Positions 28,190-41,644 of a stretch of 48,078 nt of DNA are shown one piece after another. Source of the DNA: Gracilibacillus sp. YIM 98692 (GTDB lineage: Bacteria; Bacillota; Bacilli; Bacillales; Amphibacillaceae); assembly GCF_010993965.1 (NCBI RefSeq), contig NZ_WIXM01000029.1:1-48078 (forward strand), given 5' to 3'. The notes beneath the pieces were generated by a model. The model ran no database searches, was not told where the DNA came from, and saw nothing but the letters and a program-made list of their open reading frames with translations. The position numbers were made by a program, and so were the translations under genes. Position 1 is the stretch's first letter. Each line of letters opens with the position of its first letter.

Positions 28190-28224
28190 GCAAAAAATAG
28201 AAACTGAGATTCAGCTTCTATTTT
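28190..28224 (-). terminator. Terminator of the desKR unit
   Basis: AAAATAGAA.CTG pairs with CAG.TTCTATTTT over the desR stop codon; the minus-strand tail is TTTTTTG. Confidence 0.8.
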
Positions 28225-28817
28225 AACCACCCTTTTTCTTTCACTTTCGCAATCGCTTCAATACGGTTTTCCACCTCTAATTTATCTAAAATGATAGAGA
28301 TATAATTGCGCACTGTTCCATGTGACAAATAAAGATCTTTTGCAATATTTTTTGTTGTCCTTCCATCTGCCATCAATTTCATCACTTCTATTTCTCTTTC
28401 TGTTAATGGATTTGGATCAGAAAAAGCTAAATCCACCAGCTCCGGTGCATATATTCGTTTTCCTTTTATAATCTGACGAATTGATTGAGCCAGGTCTTCA
28501 CTTGGGCTATCTTTTAATAAGTAACCGCTCACCTCTGCTTTTCTTGCACGCTCAAAATATCCAGGTCTTGCAAAGGTGGTTAATATAATGATCTTACAGG
28601 GATGTTGTCTTAACGCTTCTGCAGCATCCAATCCCGTTTTAACAGGCATTTCAATATCCATAATACATACATCTGGATTTTTTTCCTCTACCAGCTTTAA
28701 TACCTCTTCCCCATTACTTACTTGGCCAACTACTTCCATATCTTCTTCTAAATTGAGTAATGAACCCATTGCACCTAATAATAATTGCTGGTCTTCTGCG
28801 AGCACAATCCGAATCAT
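28218..28817 (-). CDS. desR: Response regulator DesR
   Basis: A NarL/LuxR-type response regulator of 199 residues, the same length as B. subtilis DesR. The receiver domain has the acidic pair ED near the N-terminus, phospho-acceptor Asp54 in VCIMDIEMP, the switch Thr in ILTTFARPGYF and Lys in YLLKDSPSED; the HTH covers about 135-195 (LTEREIEVMKLMADGRTTK). Phosphorylated DesR activates the desaturase gene in the cold. The start overlaps the end of desK by four bases (ATGA). A palindrome upstream of des is the likely operator. Confidence 0.93.
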   Translation of the reverse strand: MIRIVLAEDQQLLLGAMGSLLNLEEDMEVVGQVSNGEEVLKLVEEKNPDVCIMDIEMPVKTGLDAAEALRQHPCKIIILTTFARPGYFERARKAEVSGYLLKDSPSEDLAQSIRQIIKGKRIYAPELVDLAFSDPNPLTEREIEVMKLMADGRTTKNIAKDLYLSHGTVRNYISIILDKLEVENRIEAIAKVKEKGWLK

Positions 28818-29947
28818 GCTTCGCCCTCCTCTATCTGTTTAATCACTTTAGGAACCGTTACGATAAGATGAAAGCCTTTATTTGTAGTTAAAATGGTTAA
28901 TGAGCCATCTACAAAATCTAAACGTTCCTTCATTCCCTTTAATCCATGACCTGAGGATTTTTCACCTGTACTGCCCTTTCCGTTATCTTGCACCTCTATT
29001 AGAAAGGAATCTGCAGTTTCCTTCATCACAACCTTACAATAGGTGGCATCACTATGTTTCACGACATTTGTTATTGCTTCTCGCAAACACATGCTCAACA
29101 CATTCTCTATAAACATAGGGATGCTATCAACCTCACACTTTATGTCCACATGTCCCTTTATATTGGCAACTTTAAGCAATTGTTGCGTGTGCTCGATCTC
29201 GTCTTTTAATCGAACAGCACGCATATTGGACACCATTTCCCGTACTTCTTTTAAAGCCTGACGAGACACTGCCTGGATATCTTCAATTTCCCTCTTAGCG
29301 TTTTTCTTATCTTTCCCTATCAATTTCCCCGCCAATTCGCTTTTCAACCCTATCATGGATAACTTTTGCCCCAATGTGTCATGTAAATCCCGTGCAATAC
29401 GATGGCGTTCTTCTACAATGGCTAATTGATCAATTCGTCGATTCGCATCCTTTAGTTTTCCTTCTAATTCTTCCTGCTTTAACCGATTGTAACGATTAAT
29501 GGGAATAAGAATGACGCCAAGTACAGTCATAGCAAGAAAAGGAATTTGACCTAAAAGCAAAGAATAACTGAACAGAAATCCTACCGTAATCGTTAAAATG
29601 GTTGTAACGAGATGAACCACATATAACGAAATAAACGCTGCTTTCCTTCTTATATTACCAATAAAAAAAGCGATAAATAATGCAAAATAAACATAACCAA
29701 ACATAAAAGTCATGGCAATGTTGATCACCATTTCCACACTTACTGCAACATAGGAAAGACTTCCTTTTTTTGATGTAAAAGAAACCCAATACGCTGCAAA
29801 AAAGAGCAGAGTCACTGCGATCCCAAATCCAACCTCAAGGAAAGAAGTAGATCGAAATATGAAATAAAAGGGAAGGACACAAAAAATAATCCAAATGTAT
29901 AAACTAACCCCTGTATTTTTAGGAAATATATGATACCAATGTTGCAT
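28814..29947 (-). CDS. desK: Membrane-fluidity sensor histidine kinase DesK
   Basis: A thermosensor kinase of 377 residues (B. subtilis DesK 370). About five membrane helices fill residues 15-150, followed by a coiled-coil linker, the HisKA_3 motif ERHRIARDLHDTLGQ with phospho-acceptor His189, and an HATPase domain with REAITNVVKHSDA, VQDNGKG and GHGLKGMKERL. It works with DesR to sense membrane order on cooling. The ATG at 29947 is preferred for the AAGGA eight bases upstream; two ATGs at 29968 and 29965 are alternatives. It follows des after 50 bases that hold a terminator-like hairpin, so it may be partly uncoupled from des. Confidence 0.92.
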   Translation of the reverse strand: MQHWYHIFPKNTGVSLYIWIIFCVLPFYFIFRSTSFLEVGFGIAVTLLFFAAYWVSFTSKKGSLSYVAVSVEMVINIAMTFMFGYVYFALFIAFFIGNIRRKAAFISLYVVHLVTTILTITVGFLFSYSLLLGQIPFLAMTVLGVILIPINRYNRLKQEELEGKLKDANRRIDQLAIVEERHRIARDLHDTLGQKLSMIGLKSELAGKLIGKDKKNAKREIEDIQAVSRQALKEVREMVSNMRAVRLKDEIEHTQQLLKVANIKGHVDIKCEVDSIPMFIENVLSMCLREAITNVVKHSDATYCKVVMKETADSFLIEVQDNGKGSTGEKSSGHGLKGMKERLDFVDGSLTILTTNKGFHLIVTVPKVIKQIEEGEA

Positions 29948-29981
29948 ACTTACCGTCCTTTCCATCATACTCTATTATAGC

Positions 29982-30014
29982 AAAACAAACGCTTCGTTTA
30001 AGAGCGAAGCGTTT
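29982..30014 (-). terminator. Hairpin terminator between des and desK
   Basis: AAACGCTTCG (29987-29996) pairs with CGAAGCGTTT (30005-30014) across the des stop codon; the minus-strand tail is GTTTTG. A TATAAT (29963-29968 region, minus strand) follows, which may start a separate desKR transcript. Confidence 0.65.
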
Positions 30015-31065
30015 GAGATTTCGATACATTGGCCGTAGAAGTGGCGATATTTTTTCGTTGTTTTTGTTCTTTCTCCAATGTCTTTATTTCCTTAAAGCTG
30101 ACAAATGTTTTTTTCTCTTCATCATACAGACGAAACTTAATCGACTCTAGGCTTGTTTTAAGAGTTATGGTTGTAGCTTTTTGTAATGGCGGTGTATCCT
30201 GATGCGCTTTGTCTAAATGGTAATTTGGCACTCTAGGACTTAAGTGATGAACATGATGATAACCGATATTACCTGTTAACCATTCTAACCATTTTGGCAA
30301 TTTGTAATAAGAGCTGCCATCCACTGCCGCTTTCACATAATCCCATTCTGATTCATTTTCAAAATAAGAATCTTCAAATTGATGCTGTACATAGAATAGC
30401 CAAATACCAACTACACCTGCTGTATATACGATTGGAATTTGTACGAGTAATAACGTCTTCCAACCTAAAGTGAAAGTAATCGTTGTATAAATTACCGCTA
30501 GTAACGCATTAATCAAGTAAGTGTTATACCGTTCTTTTTTCTTTGCTCCTTTACGGTTGAAACGATTATCATATAAAAACAGTAATAACGGACCTAAACC
30601 GAACATGACAAAAGGATTTCGGTACAATCGATATTGTAATCGAAGCCATTTGGATGCTTCTTGATACTCTTTCACTGTCATGATCCAAATATCGCCCGTT
30701 CCACGTTGATCTAAGTTTCCACTTGTGGCGTGGTGAATGGAATGTGATCTTTTCCATTTTTCAAAAGCAAAATGCGTGAGGACACCCGTTATGGTTCCTA
30801 ACACTCTATTCCATTTTTTGTTTTGGAAAAAAGATTGATGGGCACAATCATGGAATATAATAAAGGTTCGAACCATAAATCCAGCAGCCAAAACAGAAAA
30901 TACAAGACTTAGAAGAATGGAAAGAGATAGGCTTTGGTAAGCTAAAAACCATAATAGAAAAAATGGTGGTATCGTATTCAATAGTTGTATGGCACTTGCC
31001 TTTCCATCTGGTGAAGCAAAAGGCATCACTGCTTTTCTCAATTGAGCTTGTTTCTGTTTGCTCAT
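29998..31065 (-). CDS. des: Acyl-lipid fatty acid desaturase
   Basis: An integral membrane di-iron desaturase of 355 residues that puts a cis double bond into acyl chains of membrane lipids (delta-5 in B. subtilis Des). All three histidine boxes are present: HDCAH (72-76), HSIHH (107-111) and HHVHH (269-273), with hydrophobic segments before and between them. It is almost colinear with B. subtilis Des (352 aa), including the TGNIGYHHVHHLSPRVPNY block. The start taken is the ATG at 31065 with AGGGATGA upstream; an ATG at 31074 is possible. It heads des-desK-desR, with a promoter and DesR-type palindrome at 31116-31167. Confidence 0.94.
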   Translation of the reverse strand: MSKQKQAQLRKAVMPFASPDGKASAIQLLNTIPPFFLLWFLAYQSLSLSILLSLVFSVLAAGFMVRTFIIFHDCAHQSFFQNKKWNRVLGTITGVLTHFAFEKWKRSHSIHHATSGNLDQRGTGDIWIMTVKEYQEASKWLRLQYRLYRNPFVMFGLGPLLLFLYDNRFNRKGAKKKERYNTYLINALLAVIYTTITFTLGWKTLLLVQIPIVYTAGVVGIWLFYVQHQFEDSYFENESEWDYVKAAVDGSSYYKLPKWLEWLTGNIGYHHVHHLSPRVPNYHLDKAHQDTPPLQKATTITLKTSLESIKFRLYDEEKKTFVSFKEIKTLEKEQKQRKNIATSTANVSKSQTLRS

Positions 31066-31115
31066 TGGTATCATCCCTACTTTCTCTATTTCTTACTATT
31101 TAGTGTACACCAAAC

Positions 31116-31229: not shown

Positions 31230-32360
31230 TTACCTTGAAATATTGGTGGATCGTTGGGTGAAATCGATGTCTTGATAGTACGTGTTTTTTACTAATATAT
31301 TAGGACCAAGGCATTTCACTGCGGGACAGTGGCAATTCAACGATTTAGCCGTTTTAGAATCCATCCAACGATCATATGCTTTTTGTAAAGTCGTATCTTG
31401 AATATTTCCTAAAGACGGCTCTTCTTCATCCCCAAAATCGGTCACAATGACATCACCTGAAAAGATATTTACATTTAATCTAGAACGACCGTCAGGATCA
31501 TTACGAACTGTTACATTTTTTTCTCGATATAAGCGGCGAAGCAAATCCAGCTCTTTCTCACTTTTATTACAAGGATAAAAAGGCAATGTTCCAAAAAGCA
31601 TCCAAACTGACTGGTCACGGTGATTTAATAACCTTTCAATCCCTTCTTGCATCTCTTCTAATGTCAATGTCTGCAAGTCGCTAGCAAAATCAACTGGATA
31701 CATTGGATGCACTTCATGTCGCACACATCCCATCTCCATCACATGATCATGAATGGTTTCTAAATAGGGAAAAGTTCGCTTATTCAGCATTGTTTCTGCA
31801 GATACCATCACACCTTCTGCTACTAATCGTTGTGAATTTTCTACCATCCGCTCAAAATATTTCTTTCGATTTTCGATCGTAGGCTTGCGCTCCATATTCG
31901 CAAATCCTGTTTCAGCGAATTCCTCTGCTGTTCCCCAATTATGCGAAATGTGTAACACGTCTAAGTAAGGAATAATCGTTTCATACCTTGAATAAGGCAA
32001 GGTTAAATTCGAATTAATCTGAGTTCTTACTCCTCGCTCATGTGCATATCGAAGCAGCGGAACCACATATTCACGGACAGATTTCTTCGACATCATCGGC
32101 TCTCCACCCGTAATACTTAAAGTCCTCAAATGCGGTATCTCATCTAACCTTTTTTTCATCAAATCAAAAGGCAATGCATCCGGATCTTTATCCTGAAGTG
32201 TATATCCTACCGCACAGTGTGCACAGCGCATATTACATAATGTAGTTGTCGTGAACTCTATATTCGAAAGTGTCATCTCGCCATATTCTTCCACATCCAA
32301 ATAAGCTTCCCACGGATCATAATGCGGCGTAATTGGACGAATTTTTTCCATAGATGTCAT
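31230..32360 (-). CDS. yfkAB: Radical SAM/CxCxxxxC protein YfkAB
   Basis: A 376-residue radical S-adenosylmethionine enzyme of unknown reaction. The cluster motif CNMRCAHC (Cys42, 46, 49) is followed by SITGGEPMMS, the SAM-binding GGE. Near the C-terminus CHCPAVKC (Cys343, 345, 350) is the CxCxxxxC signature of the YfkAB family, possibly holding a second Fe-S cluster. Length agrees with B. subtilis YfkAB (about 373). The ATG at 32360 has GAGGGAG eight bases upstream; the frame runs back to 32387 without a site. Possible promoter on the minus strand: CCGACA (32426-32431), 18 bases, TACAAT (32402-32407). It is a single-gene unit. Confidence 0.9.
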   Translation of the reverse strand: MTSMEKIRPITPHYDPWEAYLDVEEYGEMTLSNIEFTTTTLCNMRCAHCAVGYTLQDKDPDALPFDLMKKRLDEIPHLRTLSITGGEPMMSKKSVREYVVPLLRYAHERGVRTQINSNLTLPYSRYETIIPYLDVLHISHNWGTAEEFAETGFANMERKPTIENRKKYFERMVENSQRLVAEGVMVSAETMLNKRTFPYLETIHDHVMEMGCVRHEVHPMYPVDFASDLQTLTLEEMQEGIERLLNHRDQSVWMLFGTLPFYPCNKSEKELDLLRRLYREKNVTVRNDPDGRSRLNVNIFSGDVIVTDFGDEEEPSLGNIQDTTLQKAYDRWMDSKTAKSLNCHCPAVKCLGPNILVKNTYYQDIDFTQRSTNISR

Positions 32361-32478
32361 GTTCAAGACTCCCTCTCTATCATTCATAACCTTTTCCCTC
32401 TATTGTATCAAACATGACAAGCCTTTGTCGGAACAAAAAAAACGAGCAAACCTCACCCGATCTCTTCATCCTTTCTCT

Positions 32479-32920: not shown

Positions 32921-32980
32921 ATAAAAAAAGCTATCTCAAAAGTCAGCTTGCTGATTTTGCAGCTAACTATGAGACAGCTT
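32921..32980 (-). terminator. Terminator of the three-gene operon 32996-37214
   Basis: AAGCTATCTCA pairs with TGAGACAGCTT (one G-U pair) around a 30-base loop; the minus-strand tail is TTTTTTTATG. Confidence 0.75.
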
Positions 32981-32995
32981 CTGAATCTTTATTGT

Positions 32996-34969
32996 TTAAA
33001 GGTCTACCCAAGTGTACTTCTCGCCCCAGCTCTCCTTGGCAAGTTTCTCCACTTTTTCAACAAATTGATTGTCCACCGCATAAGCATCACCTTGTTCATA
33101 TGGATTATAATGAAAGGCGTAAAGTCTTGCGGCAAATTCATGAAATGGCAGGGAAGACTCACCAGGTATCTCATCATGGCCGGTAACAGTAGGTGTAATG
33201 CCTTGTCCCCAATCCTGTGCACTATCATTATTCGGGTTATAAAAGTAAACCCGATATTTGCCGTTTGAATCCTTGGCAATTCGTTGGATTGATACAGCAT
33301 GCAATCCTAACATATGGCCAAAGGAATTGGTAATAAAAATACCAACAGGATTCGGATATATTAATTCATATCCATTATTATATTCCGGATGGTGCGTAGC
33401 ATAAAACAATCGAACAAAGCCTGGATAGTCAGCAATCGAGCCAGTTAGCGGATCAATAGTTGAACTAAATCCTCTTGGAATCCAATCTCCATAGAAGGCT
33501 GGGTTCACCCATTTATGCACATCATCCCCGCGAAACTTAGATCTTCTTACCAGCTCGCCGTAAATACGATCTAGGTGCGGAACTAAAATTAACGAAACTG
33601 GGTCCAGCTCTTCATGTAAATCATTAACTAGTCCTTCACGAAGGTTCTTAGAATGAATTCGTTGCCCTTCAAATTGTACGTCAACGTCTCCATCCCTTGC
33701 AGCACGAGGAATTAATTCTAATAAATAACCAGGTGCATGCAAAGACCATAAACTAATACCACGAGCAGTTTGACAGGTTGGGTTCATCCCTTGTCCAACT
33801 CCTAAAGGTTGCCCCAACACACTAATCACACCTGCCATCATAATATCATTGGCCGTAATCCCTTCATTGCCATTTATAGAATTTAATAATACTTTACGAA
33901 CATCTGGCTGCAGGTCTAACTCGATCAGCCTTTTTAATCCAGGGATCACTGGTGTTGATGACAATACACCTCGCTCTAACATACAAGCTAATCCGTACAA
34001 CGCCTGTCTCATTGGAGGATGTATCGCTACCGTGATGAGCTTACTAACAATATCTGCATGTTGTTCAGCATTTGCTTTTCCTTTTTTAGTTAATCGAAGT
34101 GCCTCAGGCAATAGTTTTTCACGATGCTTATTTAAATAGCGAACTAGTACAACATGATGCTTTGATACAAGCCCTGTTTCTCTCATTGATTTCGCAAATG
34201 TTCTGGCTTCTTCTTCTAGCTCTTTATCCGACATCTCTTTTAATTGTTTTCGATATTCACAGGGTTCTTGGTACTTTTGACATTTTTTCGTCGGACAAGT
34301 AATAGCTCGTACATAGCGTTTAATAGCTCTTTTATCCTGCTCATCAATATCCTTATCCAATAATGATCGAGAATTTTTAATCATGTGGACAATTCGATTT
34401 ACCATAATAGGCCGCTGTGCCACAAGATCATCAATTTCTTTTAACAATTTTCCAGATATAGGTGCTAAGGTTAATTCATCAGCTAAAAATTGAAATAACC
34501 TTTCTGCTCGATTTTTTTCTTTTTGTTTTCCTTCGATTCGGGATGCTTCTGTTTCCTCTGGAAATAGAATATCCACATTTAAGGCCATGACTTCATTTAA
34601 AAACTCTTTTGCTTGTTCTTTAGAAACATTTTGATGCTTATAGTTTCCTTTAGCGATGGCAACCATTCTTAATTCACTTAGAATCTCTACAATGGATGTC
34701 ATACCACTATCCATTAAAGATCCGGCTACTAAACGCGGTTCCAACTTAGAAGGCTCTGCCCATGGACCTCCTTCAAAAATACCCGACTCATCAAAACGAT
34801 CAGCATGTTGATACAAAAATTTCATCCCGTCTTCTTCATCCATCACTCTTGCAGCAGCTTGAAACAGGTCTGACTGATACATTTTTTTTGCATATGGAAA
34901 AGCATTTTCCAATGTATCTAGTGCCTGCATAAAAGCTTCTGTTTGATTTGTATCTACTTTTAAGCTCAC
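32996..34969 (-). CDS. Unknown 657-aa protein, possible papain-like C-terminal domain
   Basis: I do not recognise this protein. It is soluble, with no signal peptide or membrane segment. Residues 1-200 are helical; C225-x4-C230-x6-C237 may bind metal; 240-390 are helical; 390-640 look like a different, beta-containing domain. In that part GVGQGMNPTCQTARGISLW (Gln393, Cys399) and GLHAVSIQRI..YFYNPNNDSAQDWG (His557, Asn579 or Asp582) follow the Q-C-H-N order of papain-like and transglutaminase-like enzymes. This is a reading by eye only. The GTG start has AAAGGAG eight bases upstream. It lies 13 bases after the ATP-grasp gene, so the two must act together; a peptidase, amidase or acyl-transfer role is open. 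Confidence 0.75.
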   Translation of the reverse strand: MSLKVDTNQTEAFMQALDTLENAFPYAKKMYQSDLFQAAARVMDEEDGMKFLYQHADRFDESGIFEGGPWAEPSKLEPRLVAGSLMDSGMTSIVEILSELRMVAIAKGNYKHQNVSKEQAKEFLNEVMALNVDILFPEETEASRIEGKQKEKNRAERLFQFLADELTLAPISGKLLKEIDDLVAQRPIMVNRIVHMIKNSRSLLDKDIDEQDKRAIKRYVRAITCPTKKCQKYQEPCEYRKQLKEMSDKELEEEARTFAKSMRETGLVSKHHVVLVRYLNKHREKLLPEALRLTKKGKANAEQHADIVSKLITVAIHPPMRQALYGLACMLERGVLSSTPVIPGLKRLIELDLQPDVRKVLLNSINGNEGITANDIMMAGVISVLGQPLGVGQGMNPTCQTARGISLWSLHAPGYLLELIPRAARDGDVDVQFEGQRIHSKNLREGLVNDLHEELDPVSLILVPHLDRIYGELVRRSKFRGDDVHKWVNPAFYGDWIPRGFSSTIDPLTGSIADYPGFVRLFYATHHPEYNNGYELIYPNPVGIFITNSFGHMLGLHAVSIQRIAKDSNGKYRVYFYNPNNDSAQDWGQGITPTVTGHDEIPGESSLPFHEFAARLYAFHYNPYEQGDAYAVDNQFVEKVEKLAKESWGEKYTWVDL

Positions 34970-34982
34970 TTTTCCATCTCCT

Positions 34983-36329
34983 TTACATAAAGAAATCGTG
35001 ATCTACATAATCCGTTAATGGCTGTTTAACTTGCTCGTGATCTTCATGATGAAAAAATAATGTTCCTAAATGATTGCCATACCCTTCTTGGTCTTGTACT
35101 TTTGCTTGCATAGGCTTATACAATGTATGTTTATCAAAACCAGGATGTTCTTCTAGTTCATCTGGTATATTTACACCTTGTATAAAGTTCTTTTTTGGAT
35201 AAACTAAGAAGCTGCCTGCATGTCCATTTGTTTCATCTTCTTGTGGAAAGAATCCATCCAGCTCTTCAGTTGAAGTATGTGGATCTGAGCATAGAATATG
35301 CCCAACATAAGGATTAAACTGATATGCTTTTTGCATTAAATCAAAAATATGTCCGCCAGGAATACGATACGCCACTTCTCCAAAATATATTTCGTCATCA
35401 TTAGTAATAAAAAATTCTGGATGAATAATGCCATATTCAATATCAAAGGCATCTACCACTTTTTGTACCTCATTACGAATAGCTGAGCGATACTCTTCAA
35501 TGTCTGGAGAAGGCGGCACCATCATCGAATAACCAAATACCACATATTCTGTAATATTTAAAAACAACACTTTGCCTTGATGAATAAAGGCTTCACACGA
35601 AACTTCTATTCCATCTAAATGACTTTCCATTAAACAAGGAAAATTGTCATCACTTAGCTTCTGATCAATATCTTCAACAGAGCGAATCATACGATGTCCA
35701 GCTGCACCTGCTTTATTTAAAGCTTTAATATGAACAGGGTCTGGATCTTCTCCGTGATGACGCAACAATGAATCATTCACTCGCTGGAAGAATTGCTTTA
35801 CATCTTCTTTCTGATTTCCTTCTTCAAAAACACCTACTCTTAAACCACCTATATGAGCACGTCGTTTCATCATGGCTTTATCTCTAAATAAGATAGAGTG
35901 ATGAAAAACACGAGGTTCATTCCTAAAATAGGCATTTAACGCTCCTGCCCATTCCACTGTTTCTTCAAATAGTGGAATCGCATGATCGACCTCAAGAGCT
36001 CGCAGTTGTTCTGATAAATCTTTTGCTTGTTGATAAACCTGTTGATAACCAAGCTCATTATTAAAATCCCAAGCAAAAAATGGTATATTGTGCTGTTTCG
36101 CATAATCATTAAATTCTGGTAAACTAACCACTACATATGGTCTCTTTAGCTGATCCATCGCTTCAATGGTTGGAATACTCCAGCCAATTAAAGCAATTTT
36201 TTTCCCTTTCTCCGGTTTTGTAATTTTCAATTTTTTGGGACCAGTTTGAATATTTTCAATTATTTTACGATCTGTTTGATCCGTTTGTTTAAAAGAAATT
36301 TCTTGTGCTGTTGGTTGATCAAATGTCAT
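34983..36329 (-). CDS. ATP-grasp ligase, unknown substrate
   Basis: A 448-residue protein of the ATP-grasp carboxylate-amine ligase type. From about residue 45 there is a Rossmann-like preATP region (KKIALIGWSIPTIEAMDQL), then DKAMMKRRA, the ATP lysine region IKALNKAGAAGHR, LMESHLDGIEVSCEAF and the metal-binding end YFGEVAYRIPGGHIFDLM with the Glu/Arg/GG pattern. This is the pattern of enzymes that join an acid to an amine via an acyl phosphate. The first 40 residues are polar and probably disordered. The ATG has AAAGGAAAG upstream. It lies between the AblB-like acetyltransferase gene (36 bases) and the 657-aa gene (13 bases). The product could be an amide-linked amino-acid derivative; the substrate is not known. 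Confidence 0.85.
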   Translation of the reverse strand: MTFDQPTAQEISFKQTDQTDRKIIENIQTGPKKLKITKPEKGKKIALIGWSIPTIEAMDQLKRPYVVVSLPEFNDYAKQHNIPFFAWDFNNELGYQQVYQQAKDLSEQLRALEVDHAIPLFEETVEWAGALNAYFRNEPRVFHHSILFRDKAMMKRRAHIGGLRVGVFEEGNQKEDVKQFFQRVNDSLLRHHGEDPDPVHIKALNKAGAAGHRMIRSVEDIDQKLSDDNFPCLMESHLDGIEVSCEAFIHQGKVLFLNITEYVVFGYSMMVPPSPDIEEYRSAIRNEVQKVVDAFDIEYGIIHPEFFITNDDEIYFGEVAYRIPGGHIFDLMQKAYQFNPYVGHILCSDPHTSTEELDGFFPQEDETNGHAGSFLVYPKKNFIQGVNIPDELEEHPGFDKHTLYKPMQAKVQDQEGYGNHLGTLFFHHEDHEQVKQPLTDYVDHDFFM

Positions 36330-36365
36330 GTTACTTCTTTCCTTTCTTATATGTTGTGATAGAAT

Positions 36366-37214
36366 TTATAACACTTTATACCAAATATTCATGTTTTCCA
36401 TACTGCCTGCGATATTGCTGTTTTGCACCATTCTACCCCCGAACGTGAAGCCATGTTTTACATTGACTAAATTCATTCCAACAGAATTAGCACGTGAATA
36501 GGAAAATAATGTACGGATGCCCATTTTCTTTACCTTTGGAATTAAATGTGCTACCTGATAGGATAATAATTGTTTGGCTCTGTGTTCAGGGTATGTAGCA
36601 CAATCTGAAAGCTCTGCTGATCGAAAATGAGGCAGAATATCGGCAGAACAAGCACTTACAATCATACCGTTGTGCTGCACTACTAAAAAATAGACATCAC
36701 TTTGCATCATTTCTTCTATAAATACCGGATCATTCATTGGCGTTGGATACGATTGAAAAACAGTTTGATAAAGGTTTGCCATTTGTTTAGCATCTTTCAA
36801 ATCCGCCCATCTCATTTGATAACCTGTTGGTAATTCAAAATTAGTAGAAATTTGTTGCCTCTTTTGAATAACATCAAATACTTTCTTTTCTGATGCGAGT
36901 CGATCTGTCTTATGACGAGCAGGATCTAAAAACAAGGCATAGATGTATGCGGTAGCACCATTAAAAAAACCTTTGATTTTCCCTTCATAACAAGCACCAT
37001 GTTGTTTGATCTCCCCTGTTTGATGATCGCGCAAATAAAAAATTAACTTATCACAATTCGTATCCTTCGCCACTAGCTTTAAACGGTCTAAAAAAGAATT
37101 CAATTCCTCCCCGGTAGGCATTTGATAAATTTTTATCCGTTGACTGATGGGTTCAACAGATACCGTCCTGCCAAAATAGGCTAAATCTTGCGGCGTTGTT
37201 TTTAACATTTTCAT
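36366..37214 (-). CDS. GNAT acetyltransferase, AblB (beta-lysine acetyltransferase)-like
   Basis: A 282-residue protein. The N-terminal half (about 1-140) has the non-GNAT region typical of AblB (KLIFYLRDHQTG, FFNGATAYIYALFLDPARHKT); the C-terminal half is a GNAT domain ending with SNSIAGS-like SNIAGSMENMNIWYK, the hallmark of putative beta-lysine N-acetyltransferases (AblB/YodP). AblB normally pairs with lysine 2,3-aminomutase (AblA) to make the osmolyte N-epsilon-acetyl-beta-lysine. No AblA is in this window; an ATP-grasp ligase and the 657-aa protein follow instead. The acetyl-CoA loop is somewhat degenerate (YPEHRAKQLLSYQ). The ATG follows GGAG by 13 bases. It is probably first in its operon. 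Confidence 0.82.
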   Translation of the reverse strand: MKMLKTTPQDLAYFGRTVSVEPISQRIKIYQMPTGEELNSFLDRLKLVAKDTNCDKLIFYLRDHQTGEIKQHGACYEGKIKGFFNGATAYIYALFLDPARHKTDRLASEKKVFDVIQKRQQISTNFELPTGYQMRWADLKDAKQMANLYQTVFQSYPTPMNDPVFIEEMMQSDVYFLVVQHNGMIVSACSADILPHFRSAELSDCATYPEHRAKQLLSYQVAHLIPKVKKMGIRTLFSYSRANSVGMNLVNVKHGFTFGGRMVQNSNIAGSMENMNIWYKVL

Positions 37215-37934: not shown

Positions 37935-40900
37935 TTACGAATCTGATACATTAGGAACCCAACCGTCCAGCACATTTTCTACTGTATAGTTCGCTGCTTC
38001 TTCATCCGTAAGCTGTCTTCTACTATCATTCACGATAGCGCCTGGGCCTTCATTTTCATATTCATATAACTTAGCATCTTCTGGCTGGAAACCGCCCATC
38101 TCTGTCCAGCCTTCTTCCTTAATATGCTCACCTAAATGAGAATTTTTATAAACGACATGAGCAATTGCACTAGGGTTACTACTTGGCTGCCAAGGTCTGC
38201 CTAAATAAACTGTATTTGCTTTCGCATCACTTGTTAGAGTACTGTTTAAAAACAAGAAGCCAAATTCTTGATCATCTTGAGTACTCGCTGCTGTAATGTA
38301 TCCATTGTTAGAATCTGATCCTCGGTCTAAAGAATGAATCGTACTATTTTCAAACACAGCTCGAGCTGCACCAAAAATAAAGTCTACATCCCCTTCAATA
38401 TAACTATTATAGTAATATTGAGAACCGGAGTGAGCGAAAAGCGTATCTTGATTACCTAGTAAACGAACATTATCAAAAATCATACGCTCACCAGTTGCAT
38501 AGACAGCCACTGCTTGCTTCCCATCTGTTTCAACAGACTCATCAAAGCTATTTTCAATCGTGATATCTTGTACTAAGAAATCATTTGCTCGGAAAAATGC
38601 TGTCGCACTATTACTTGTACCAATTGTCCCTCCAACACCATTATCTTTACCGGCATAATTATCGTAATGAATCACTGTTTCGTGCTCATCCTCACCGATT
38701 AGATTAATAAACGGTTTATCAGCAGGAACGGTAATTACCTCTTTATATACGCCATTTTTCACGAAAATATCTACGAGGTTCTGATTATCATTTGGTACAG
38801 CATCAATTGCTGCTTGCACGGTTTGATAGTCACCCGATTCATCTGTGGCTACCACCAATTTATTTTCAATGGCAGCTAGACTATCCGTGAAATCTTCTAC
38901 TTTTTCCACTTGTCCATCAACTAATGTGTATCCTTGATCATTCGCACTATTAGTTTCCACTACTTGAGCATAAATGTTGCCTTCAAAATACCCTGTTGTT
39001 TTTGCTGTTTCTAACAATAACTGTCCATAGCTTCCGCCCCATTGATAGCCATTTCTTCTCTCTGCCTCAATCTCATGAATATCATGTTTAATAACACCAT
39101 CACGTCCAGAGAAAATCGGCTTATTTGTACCTATTTCATAAAAACGATACCACGTTACTGCATTTTCATCTTCTACAAAGTATTCACCATTTTCATTACC
39201 GCCACTTACATAGCGAACACCTTCTACTTTCACTTCATCATACCATTTTAAAGCACTTAACACCGCTTCTTTTATTTCATTGGATTGATCCATTCGTTCC
39301 ATTAAAAACTGTACAATCGCTACGGATTCCTTACCTGAAATAGAAGGATGTTCATACGAACGAGCACCCACTGGCTCATACGTTTGCGGATGATGTTGTT
39401 GACCCCAAGCTGTTTTCTCACCATCGGCAACAATTTGTGATTTTAGAATATAGTCTAAAGCTAGATCTAGTGATTCCTCTATATCAGCAATGCCCTCGTC
39501 TGTTACAATATCTGTGTGGAACGGATACTTTTGGTCCACTATATCTTCAAACATATTAATTACTCGTATCATGGCCTCATCATTAAATGTCACCATGTCA
39601 GAATAATTTCCTCTTCTTGGATATACTTGGGCAAAACCACCCGTATCATATTGCAGATCAAACAGAAACGCTAACCCTTTTTGGAAACTTTCACGATATT
39701 TCTCGTCGCCTGTTTCTGCATACACTTCAGCTAAAAATTCCATTTCCTTAATTGTCGCGTCATTATCAATCATTCCAAGTTCGACACCATTACTATTCAC
39801 CCACTCAGAACGAGTTGCTTCACCATCCCAAGGCTCACTATAATCTATTGCTTTTGACCAGCCGCCATGTTCTATTTGCCAGCTAACCATATTATCTGCT
39901 TGCTCAATAGCAGCTTGTAAATCCCCATTAAAGGTAGGTTCATCTTCTGGGATAATATACTGATCTCCGTCTAATGATTCGATTACTTCATAGATAATAA
40001 CGGTGTTGCCATATCGGTCCTGAGTCACTGCCGCTTCTTCAGCACGTAAATGTTGACTTAAAAGAGGAGATAAACTGCTCCAAGAGCCATTTGGTAAAGA
40101 CAGTTTGATATCATTTACATCAACATCCGTTAACTCTCCATTTAAAGTAACTGCAATGAAATGTTCTGTTAATACATCAGCTCTTGCAATATGAATGTCT
40201 TCAGAAGGCTTATTGGATTCTTTCACAAGTAAATCCACCATATCTATTGCTTCTCCCCAAGTCATATCTTCCTTAACACCGTAATTATTCGGGCTATTTG
40301 GATTCATGATACCTTGGCGAGCCAGCTTACCAAGCATATTAGAACCTTCTTCATCCTCAGACACCATATCCAGCAAATCTCCGACAATAAGAGCAATCTC
40401 TTCTTTTTCTAATGGATTTTGAAAAGAAGTGTCTTCCCATAAAAAGGAAGGGACATATTCATTCGCCTTTGCTATCTCCGCTGCATAAATTCCCCATTCA
40501 TCTGCAGGAATATGACCGATTGCTTCTCGGTCTGACATATTTTTAAATACTTCTTGCTGATCAAAGCCAAACTCACGATTGATTAATGCTAGTAATTCTA
40601 CTCCAGTGATTAACTGATCTTCTTGATAAGCATCCCCTACCACACCTAGTTGCTTTAATTTTTTCAATGTAAGGCCAGGCACTAATTCTTCGAGTTCTAC
40701 TTTCTCTGTGATAACTGGACCGTTATTCTCACTGTCACTTTTCTGATTATGGATACGTAAGTGGTCAATATTTCCACCACCTTCTGCTCCAGTTGCTGTT
40801 AATCGAATAACATTTTCTCCAGCAGGAAGCTGCAATTTAGTACCTTCTACTTTCCATTCTGCCCAGTCTCCAGTTGGAGGAAATTCTAATTCCTGCATCG

Positions 40901-41621
40901 TTTCACCGTTCACACTGATTTCTGCTGGCCGATTGCTTCCTCCAGCATGCGCATATCGAAAATCCACGTTATACGTAGCTTCAACAGGAAGTTCTACGAC
41001 CCATTCGATATAACCGCCAGGAACGTTAGGGTTAAAATCAACAAAACCATCCCCAGTGAAACCAGCATGCTTATTGTCAATTATAATCCCATCACCATTT
41101 GCATCTTCTGCCTCTTTTAATTCGTCAACACTTCGATATACATATAAATGATCAATATTAGCTCCACCCTCTGGAGCAGTTGCTGTTAAAGTAACTTCAT
41201 TGGTTCCCTCTTGTAACATTGCTTCTTCTGTTACATAAACATAATCTACAAAATCTCCTGTTTGAGGAAAGTCCATTTGCTCGTTCACAACGTTTTCATT
41301 TACTTCCAAACGAGCATGTCTGTTATCAGGCTTGCCATGAGCGTAACGAATCGCCAACACATATTCCGCTTCTTCTTCGACCTCAACCGTCCAATTTAAA
41401 TAACCTCCTGGTTCATTGGGGACAAAATCAATAAACCCATCCCCTGTAAAGCCTACATGCTTATTATCTACCATAGTGCCTTCTCCATCTGCTTCCTCTG
41501 CTTCATACAGCTCCCCCGGGAAACTGATTGTTTCCGCTTGGGCTTGTCCAACTCCAAATAAAAACATCACAAATAGTGCTAGTACAAGAACTTTACACTT
41601 TCTAGAAAATGAATTGTCCAA
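37935..41621 (-). CDS. Secreted multidomain pectinase: CBM-CBM-SLH-like-pectate lyase PL10-pectin methylesterase CE8
   Basis: A 1228-residue exported enzyme. In order: signal peptide (about 1-29, VLVLALFVMFLFG..AQA), two related carbohydrate-binding modules of CBM35-like type (about 35-163 and 168-292, each with DNKH.GFTGDGF and PGGY), a region with S-layer-homology-like spacing (about 310-475), a linker, a PL10 pectate lyase (about 562-885: HGGWSKAIDY, DNDAT, GARSYEHPSISGKES) and a CE8 pectin methylesterase (about 920-1222: GNQDTLF, GDVDFIFG and YLGRPW hold the catalytic Gln/Asp/Asp/Arg). De-esterification and cleavage of pectin are thus in one chain. The TTG at 41621 is favoured by AGGAGAGGTG upstream; a GTG at 41630 is alternative. 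A cre-like site lies just upstream. Confidence 0.92.
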   Translation of the reverse strand: MDNSFSRKCKVLVLALFVMFLFGVGQAQAETISFPGELYEAEEADGEGTMVDNKHVGFTGDGFIDFVPNEPGGYLNWTVEVEEEAEYVLAIRYAHGKPDNRHARLEVNENVVNEQMDFPQTGDFVDYVYVTEEAMLQEGTNEVTLTATAPEGGANIDHLYVYRSVDELKEAEDANGDGIIIDNKHAGFTGDGFVDFNPNVPGGYIEWVVELPVEATYNVDFRYAHAGGSNRPAEISVNGETMQELEFPPTGDWAEWKVEGTKLQLPAGENVIRLTATGAEGGGNIDHLRIHNQKSDSENNGPVITEKVELEELVPGLTLKKLKQLGVVGDAYQEDQLITGVELLALINREFGFDQQEVFKNMSDREAIGHIPADEWGIYAAEIAKANEYVPSFLWEDTSFQNPLEKEEIALIVGDLLDMVSEDEEGSNMLGKLARQGIMNPNSPNNYGVKEDMTWGEAIDMVDLLVKESNKPSEDIHIARADVLTEHFIAVTLNGELTDVDVNDIKLSLPNGSWSSLSPLLSQHLRAEEAAVTQDRYGNTVIIYEVIESLDGDQYIIPEDEPTFNGDLQAAIEQADNMVSWQIEHGGWSKAIDYSEPWDGEATRSEWVNSNGVELGMIDNDATIKEMEFLAEVYAETGDEKYRESFQKGLAFLFDLQYDTGGFAQVYPRRGNYSDMVTFNDEAMIRVINMFEDIVDQKYPFHTDIVTDEGIADIEESLDLALDYILKSQIVADGEKTAWGQQHHPQTYEPVGARSYEHPSISGKESVAIVQFLMERMDQSNEIKEAVLSALKWYDEVKVEGVRYVSGGNENGEYFVEDENAVTWYRFYEIGTNKPIFSGRDGVIKHDIHEIEAERRNGYQWGGSYGQLLLETAKTTGYFEGNIYAQVVETNSANDQGYTLVDGQVEKVEDFTDSLAAIENKLVVATDESGDYQTVQAAIDAVPNDNQNLVDIFVKNGVYKEVITVPADKPFINLIGEDEHETVIHYDNYAGKDNGVGGTIGTSNSATAFFRANDFLVQDITIENSFDESVETDGKQAVAVYATGERMIFDNVRLLGNQDTLFAHSGSQYYYNSYIEGDVDFIFGAARAVFENSTIHSLDRGSDSNNGYITAASTQDDQEFGFLFLNSTLTSDAKANTVYLGRPWQPSSNPSAIAHVVYKNSHLGEHIKEEGWTEMGGFQPEDAKLYEYENEGPGAIVNDSRRQLTDEEAANYTVENVLDGWVPNVSDS

Positions 41622-41644
41622 TCTTTTCACCTCTCCTTTTTATT

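Follow-up and report, generated by a model that had tools for sequence, protein, structure and literature searches.

What do an AblB-like acetyltransferase, an ATP-grasp ligase and a protein of 657 amino acids (aa) without a family name do together? The three are encoded by adjacent genes at positions 32996 to 37214 of a 48,078-nucleotide stretch of DNA from Gracilibacillus sp. YIM 98692 (contig NZ_WIXM01000029.1 of assembly GCF_010993965.1, which comprises 4.37 Mb in 69 contigs), referred to here as the window. All features described below are read from the minus strand. An initial annotation, made from the letters of the window, had described an operon that may make an acetylated, amide-linked amino-acid derivative, for example a compatible solute, with the 657-aa protein as an amidase, acyltransferase or peptidase. 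Its observations were partly confirmed and its interpretation was partly supported by the analyses described here. The operon is real in the source genome, and its three open reading frames are spaced 36 and 13 bases apart, as had been noted. The three-gene set is the arrangement of this genome, and the conserved unit consists of the second and third genes. This pair probably makes or edits a small amide. Our tentative proposal, held with somewhat less than even confidence, is that the pair forms a module of a ligase and a thiol hydrolase or transferase, to which some lineages add an acetyltransferase acting on diamino acids, and that the product may be an N-acetylated amino-acid amide or peptide.

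Conservation of the ligase gene and the 657-aa gene as a pair

The gene for the 657-aa protein (gene 3) starts with GTG and occupies positions 32996 to 34969. Relatives of its product were found in 523 stretches of DNA, of which the best 80 were surveyed as loci; the closest named relatives among these 80 were from Gracilibacillus (83 to 85%). Open reading frames of less than 60 aa or overlapping longer ones were excluded from the locus tables, and intergenic gaps were measured from the first possible start codon. An ATP-grasp gene was located directly 5′ of the 657-aa gene, on the same strand, in 80/80 loci, with a median gap of 29 bases. The initial annotation had treated the three genes as a unit; this held for the ligase and the 657-aa protein and failed for the AblB-like gene, which was beside the pair in only 22 of the 80 loci. 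A sample of 199 genomes of the order was searched with profiles of the ligase (E ≤ 1e-20) and of the 657-aa protein (E ≤ 0.001), and the two profiles selected the identical 32 genomes.

Samples of the class and the phylum were also searched. The 657-aa protein was present in 9/299 genomes of the class, two of which (G000 and G389; our handles begin with G for genomes and L for loci) were counted in the order sample, and in 1/299 genomes of the phylum, this being the source genome. The ligase gene adjoined the 657-aa gene in six of seven loci from other orders, two of which (L160 and L161) also had the AblB-like GNAT acetyltransferase; the seventh (L166) is a partial frame with an internal stop, and no ligase match was found within the stretch searched. 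A plasmid of Halomonas sp. PA16-9, a member of another phylum, carries tandem genes for a ligase (46% identity) and a protein of the 657-aa type (40% identity), separated by 30 bases. The Halomonas ligase scored 26.0 bits, just under the ATP-grasp Pfam cut-off of 27, and no match to the acetyltransferase of the window was found in the 21.8 kb around this pair. Two Halobacillus species have the pair in two copies (L015/L059 and L016/L051). The patchy distribution and the Halomonas case suggest horizontal transfer of the pair. Relatives of the 657-aa protein were detected neither in phage records nor, using two peptide patterns, in viral contigs, and comparisons with PADLOC and PHROGs yielded zero matches at E ≤ 0.1; a phage or defence origin was, therefore, dropped.

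Predicted fold and catalytic residues of the 657-aa protein

The initial annotation had not recognised the third protein as a member of a well-described family, and none was found here. Pfam and NCBIfam cut-offs were not reached by any family, while a profile search of the sequences of solved structures detected nothing below E 0.05 (one match, at chance level, had an E value of 0.6) and gave no match for the C-terminal domain. A full-length AlphaFold2 model based on 45 relatives had a predicted local distance difference test score (pLDDT) of 87.3 and a predicted template modelling score (pTM) of 0.82. Residues 1 to 362 (positions 33884 to 34969) were helical in the predicted secondary structure, and their fold was not identified. 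Foldseek searches with the whole model produced no matches at E ≤ 0.001; those listed were mainly helical-repeat proteins with template modelling (TM) scores of ∼0.1 to 0.2, with staphopain further down (E 0.73). As the whole-model search was without a significant match, the C-terminal domain was modelled separately.

The C-terminal 295 residues (363 to 657; positions 32996 to 33883) modelled alone had a pLDDT of 85.7 and a pTM of 0.84. The top Foldseek matches of this domain model were calpain cores, 3bow_A (E 5.1e-4) and 1mdw_B (E 6.1e-4), the best having a probability of 1.00 and TM scores of 0.40/0.20. Matches above E 0.001 were to more calpains, a bacterial dipeptidyl aminopeptidase, staphopain and cathepsins, amid unrelated proteins. 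Peptidase_C2 (PF00648) was not among the six families matched by any of 45 domain sequences at E ≤ 10 with the HMMER filters on. A bridge search for bacterial calpain-like proteins yielded 0 in 249 genomes, but also 0 in the controls.

Residues in the predicted active site were examined in an alignment of 45 of the 87 proteins encoded by the 80 loci, hand-picked for spread and including seven second copies. The placement of Gln393, Cys399 and His557 in the order of papain-type enzymes had been pointed out in the initial annotation, and all three residues, together with an NPNND motif (residues 578 to 582; positions 33224 to 33238) that includes Asn578, were invariant in 45/45 proteins. The motifs Q..NP.CQ, HA..I.R and NPNND were found in 87/87 proteins, and the distance from His to Asn was 21 residues in every one, so that the papain order of Gln, Cys, His and Asn is conserved in the aligned proteins and, by motif, in all 87. 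In the domain model, a helix begins at Cys399, His557 is part of a strand and Asn578 comes just after the strand following that of His557. Gln393 and Cys399 (Q-x5-C; positions 33773 to 33793) are the predicted oxyanion residue and nucleophile, His557 (33299 to 33301) is the predicted catalytic base, and Asn578 would complete the triad. The papain fold suspected from the sequence was supported by structure prediction: the model of the C-terminal half is that of a thiol enzyme of the papain/calpain type, in which Gln, Cys, His and Asn form an invariant set. The model shares its fold and the placement of these residues in the secondary structure with calpain and staphopain cores, and Q-x5-C is also the spacing in papain. 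The 657-aa protein differs from the papain superfamily in its large helical N-terminal half, in its fixed His-to-Asn distance and in the absence of a match to papain-like families of Pfam. A cluster of three cysteines had also been put forward as a feature of the protein; it was rejected, as Cys225, Cys230 and Cys237 were conserved in only 1/45, 2/45 and 5/45 rows, respectively.

A predicted amide ligase

The second gene (positions 34983 to 36329; 448 aa) had been assigned to the ATP-grasp enzymes, and its product matched ATP-grasp_4 (PF13535; E 7.1e-8; 32.7 bits versus a cut-off of 27). A ligase profile (alignment A2, with 25 of the 80 ligases hand-picked for spread) matched the solved structures of L-amino acid ligases 4wd3 (E 1.9e-12) and 3vot (E 6.6e-6) and also 4dim, named as a phosphoribosylglycinamide synthetase (E 7.1e-6). 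NCBIfam cut-offs were not reached, the best being PRK07206 with 44 of 302 bits. The ATP-grasp core aligns with 4wd3 over ∼250 residues; the protein differs from L-amino acid ligases in being a distant relative, for which only the general ATP-grasp_4 cut-off was reached, and in having a conserved thiol-enzyme partner. From these similarities, the gene 2 product is predicted to be an amide ligase distantly related to L-amino acid ligases.

L-amino acid ligases are known to produce bioactive dipeptides. This kinship raises the possibility of a peptide natural product, in which the ligase would make a small inhibitor or signalling compound resembling a peptide, and the thiol protein would either mature this compound or confer self-resistance. 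The available text of a paper on the pathway for E-64, a fungal inhibitor of cysteine proteases, mentions both ATP-grasp and calpain (PMC12568646), which adds to the case. No transporter or resistance family was prominent around the pair, however: no neighbour family beyond the three operon genes was present in more than 15/80 loci, the rarer neighbours not having been annotated. We regard a natural product of this type as quite unlikely.

A separate clade of AblB-like acetyltransferases

As previously annotated, the first gene (positions 36366 to 37214; 282 aa) encodes an AblB-like GNAT acetyltransferase, which scored 241.6 bits against the TIGR03827 cut-off of 205.1. This score for an equivalog model of AblB (YodP-type beta-lysine N-acetyltransferase) would favour an ordinary N-acetyl-beta-lysine pathway, with the acetyltransferase being AblB and the other two genes neighbours by chance. 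The partner enzyme of that pathway, lysine 2,3-aminomutase (AblA), had been reported as missing, and 0 matches were found in the whole source genome by a search that was positive in 8/14 control genomes. An acetyltransferase gene adjoined the pair in the 22 loci in one of two arrangements, lying upstream in the same orientation as the pair in 16 and downstream in convergent orientation in 6, and this adjacency across genera argues against chance.

Phylogenetic analysis was performed on 63 rows (59 different), sampling 40 of the 118 places where the cut-off of the AblB model was exceeded; places under 260 bits (G000 and G389 being entered as the window and L007) were combined with a hand choice. 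A branch with support of 100/99 separated 29 operon and 5 unlinked proteins from 27 AblA-linked proteins and 2 others. Linkage to AblA was defined as the presence of AblA within the fetched stretch, its identity being checked for two examples, which scored 650 and 655 bits against TIGR03820. When the window acetyltransferase was searched against the 199 genomes of the order, matches were obtained in 112, the same number as for the AblB model over its cut-off, making this search a fair test for AblB-type proteins. The best match was 44 to 100% identical in 13 genomes and ≤39% identical in the rest; matches outside the clade were 26 to 39% identical. All 13 genomes with a clade acetyltransferase were among the 32 genomes with the pair, the gene being next to the pair in 8 and unlinked in 5 (G349, G372, G431, G442 and G493). 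The hypergeometric probability of this co-occurrence was 4e-12 with the genomes treated as independent, which they are not. The acetyltransferase, hence, is a member of a distinct AblB-family clade, and among the 199 genomes sampled this clade was confined to those with the pair.

The presence of AblA was examined in 18 of the 22 genomes with an acetyltransferase gene beside the pair (L004, L010, L012 and L013 being left out) and in 5 others. Among the 18, AblA was over the cut-off in 5, only weaker relatives were found in 4 and none in 9. Three of the five genomes over the cut-off (G763, G764 and G766) had, near AblA, a second acetyltransferase 31 to 35% identical to that of the window, and an AblA-linked acetyltransferase (30 to 35% identical) coexisted with a clade member in five (G307, G349, G763, G764 and G766). 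In five pair genomes lacking an adjoining acetyltransferase (L032, L049, L053, L055 and L064), a clade member was located elsewhere in 2/5 and AblA in 0/5. The gene 1 product, therefore, resembles AblB in its score and differs from it in having its own clade, a genome without AblA and a tie to the ATP-grasp/thiol pair. The ordinary pathway is, on these findings, distinctly improbable.

Possible relation to acetylated solutes of Halobacillus

The 22 loci with the acetyltransferase were from genera such as Gracilibacillus, Salipaludibacillus, Halobacillus, Salimicrobium, Salibacterium, Alteribacillus and Paludifilum, and the genera of such loci are generally known as halophiles. Our searches of H. 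halophilus AcN7-4 detected no AblA match and a single match to the window acetyltransferase, which was the operon gene. Halobacillus halophilus is reported to produce N-epsilon-acetyl lysine and N-delta-acetyl ornithine; in the available text of this review, the genome is the sole basis for the pathways, Hbhal_3877 is named for the epsilon-acetylation and the N-delta-acetyltransferase is termed "so far unidentified" (PMC4187189). The acetylated solutes are minor in amount, according to the parts available of a second paper, in which N-acetyl lysine appears in the results and N-acetyl-beta-lysine in the discussion (PMC3995056); the latter name is a further point for the ordinary AblB pathway. 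The clade acetyltransferase may be regarded as a lead, a candidate for the acetylation step in the synthesis of acetyl ornithine and acetyl lysine by H. halophilus. A wider reading appears unlikely to us. In it, the pair would be a widespread module of amide metabolism in which the ATP-grasp ligase has a papain-fold partner acting as a transacylase in the cytoplasm; in halophilic Bacillota the module would have acquired the diamino-acid acetyltransferase, which would be the missing N-delta-acetylornithine/N-epsilon-acetyllysine enzyme of Halobacillus, and its product would be a novel acetylated amide solute.

Proposed function and evidence against it

In the proposed ligase/thiol-enzyme module, the ligase would spend ATP on forming an amide between an amine and either an amino acid or a small acid. 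The thiol enzyme would then take the amide through an acyl-enzyme at Cys399, leading either to hydrolysis or to acyl transfer to another amine. These two steps are put forward because of the chemistry of the enzyme families and the conserved pairing. Because of its relation to AblB, the acetyltransferase, where present, would acetylate lysine, ornithine or a similar diamino acid on its side-chain amine, this diamino acid being a building block or a product of the pair. The outcome could be an N-acetylated peptide or amino-acid amide, which might serve as a compatible solute. All of the enzymes would presumably act in the cytoplasm, as no signal peptide was apparent by eye.

Two known systems combine similar enzymes. 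Glutathionylspermidine synthetase/amidase couples an ATP-grasp ligase to a papain-fold amidase; it is one fused enzyme, whereas two genes are present here, and this family was not listed for either protein. The synthesis of N-acetylglutaminylglutamine amide utilizes a fused enzyme with GNAT and ATP-grasp parts; here the GNAT and ATP-grasp genes are separate, and the third protein was without an amidotransferase match.

A number of observations weigh against the module as proposed. Kinship among the genomes inflates the co-occurrence figures. No papain-like family matched the 657-aa protein or its domain by sequence in Pfam or among solved structures, and TM scores of the calpain matches ranged from 0.13 to 0.43, a moderate fold match for which reason the domain was taken as having a papain-type rather than a calpain fold. 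There was no AblB-like gene beside the pair in 58/80 loci, and a clade acetyltransferase (≥44% identity) was missing from 19 of the 32 pair genomes; as the enzyme is missing from most pair loci and genomes, the core of the module does not include acetylation. In G770 and G771 (L018, Paludifilum, and L019, Melghirimyces), AblA was over the cut-off and the sole AblB-type match was the operon acetyltransferase, which may serve AblA in these genomes, as the ordinary pathway would have it. Pairing was also one-sided. Two proteins of the 657-aa type were present in 11/32 pair genomes, of which only G467 had two ligases, leaving 10/32 with an extra copy and no second ligase. In six genomes of one genus (G318, G360, G393, G422, G449 and G474), the extra copy and the ligase were far apart or on different contigs; in three (G358, G424 and G489) they were near each other, while G315 had two copies on separate contigs. 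These unpaired copies raise the possibility that the thiol protein has a role of its own.

The extra copies in the six genomes of one genus were nearly full length (893 to 919 bits). In seven of the surveyed loci (L048, L061, L068, L070, L073, L075 and L079), a second copy was located 3′ of the first although the locus had a single ligase; these second copies were 33 to 42% identical, were ∼590 to 630 aa long and had a shorter C-terminus.

Copies without their own ligase, in 7/80 loci and 10/32 genomes, would suit a reversible tagging of proteins, in which a cellular protein would receive an amino acid or peptide from the ATP-grasp enzyme and lose this tag again through the thiol enzyme, whose helical N-terminal half would provide guidance. 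Tubulin tyrosine ligase and vasohibin provide a parallel for such tagging and untagging. The conservation of ligase and thiol protein as a pair also fits this explanation, and protein binding is conceivable for a helical region of this size. However, the relatives listed for the ligase join free amino acids, with no tubulin tyrosine ligase or RimK model among them, an acetyltransferase partner is better suited to small molecules, and no substrate gene stands out among neighbours confined to 15/80 loci or fewer. The extra proteins without a ligase made us slightly less confident of the amide-forming module and more inclined towards tagging, which we nevertheless consider rather unlikely.

Operon signals and neighbouring genes

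The shared terminator recorded in the initial annotation was confirmed 3′ of gene 3 at positions 32921 to 32982: its predicted free energy was −30.3 kcal/mol (z −5.0), equally stable shuffles numbered 0/200 and a T run was present. This terminator was absent from the list of a simple terminator scan. Good ribosome sites had been claimed for all three genes; by eye, the claim held for genes 2 and 3, and the GGAG of gene 1 is 13 nucleotides ahead of its ATG, a longer spacing than is usual. No sigma-70-like site was listed 5′ of gene 1 up to position 37935, and when the upstream regions of four loci were aligned for a common promoter, likeness was limited to a short run near the start.

Immediately 3′ of the operon terminator is a gene for a YfkAB radical SAM protein (31230 to 32387; TIGR04478, 639 bits). 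Further on, positions 28218 to 31074 encode in tandem a response-regulator-like protein (identified by eye), a DesK-type sensor kinase (PF23540; E 1.4e-52) and a fatty acid desaturase (PF00487; E 3.6e-38), which we take to resemble a cold-responsive system for membrane fluidity. On the other side of the operon, a chain of 1231 aa (37935 to 41630) combines carbohydrate-binding modules with a pectic acid lyase (PF09492; E 1.9e-107) and a pectinesterase (PF01095; E 8.5e-56). In 15/80 loci (L047, L048, L057, L061, L067 to L071, L073, L075, L076 and L078 to L080), a different acetyltransferase of the GNAT type, ∼190 aa long, was divergently encoded 5′ of the pair; it presumably resembles YjbC of Bacillus and was treated as a neighbour rather than a member of the module.

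Implications

The kinds of enzyme encoded by this operon are known, while their combination and the 657-aa family are, as far as our searches go, apparently undescribed in the literature. No description of the gene set was found by title or abstract, though a review of ATP-grasp amidoligases may still mention it; the available text of PMC4685198 does not mention ATP-grasp. The 657-aa family has hundreds of relatives (the 523 stretches); it reached no Pfam or NCBIfam cut-off and was without a match in PHROGs or PADLOC, and yet its catalytic set is invariant and its enzyme partner constant, two features that make the chemistry of the family directly testable. The results for the acetyltransferase suggest that the AblB equivalog model also names proteins that have departed from the beta-lysine pathway. 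For H. halophilus, the clade acetyltransferase provides a concrete candidate for a step that, in the available text of PMC4187189, is either unidentified, as for N-delta-acetyl ornithine, or deduced from the genome, as for N-epsilon-acetyl lysine.

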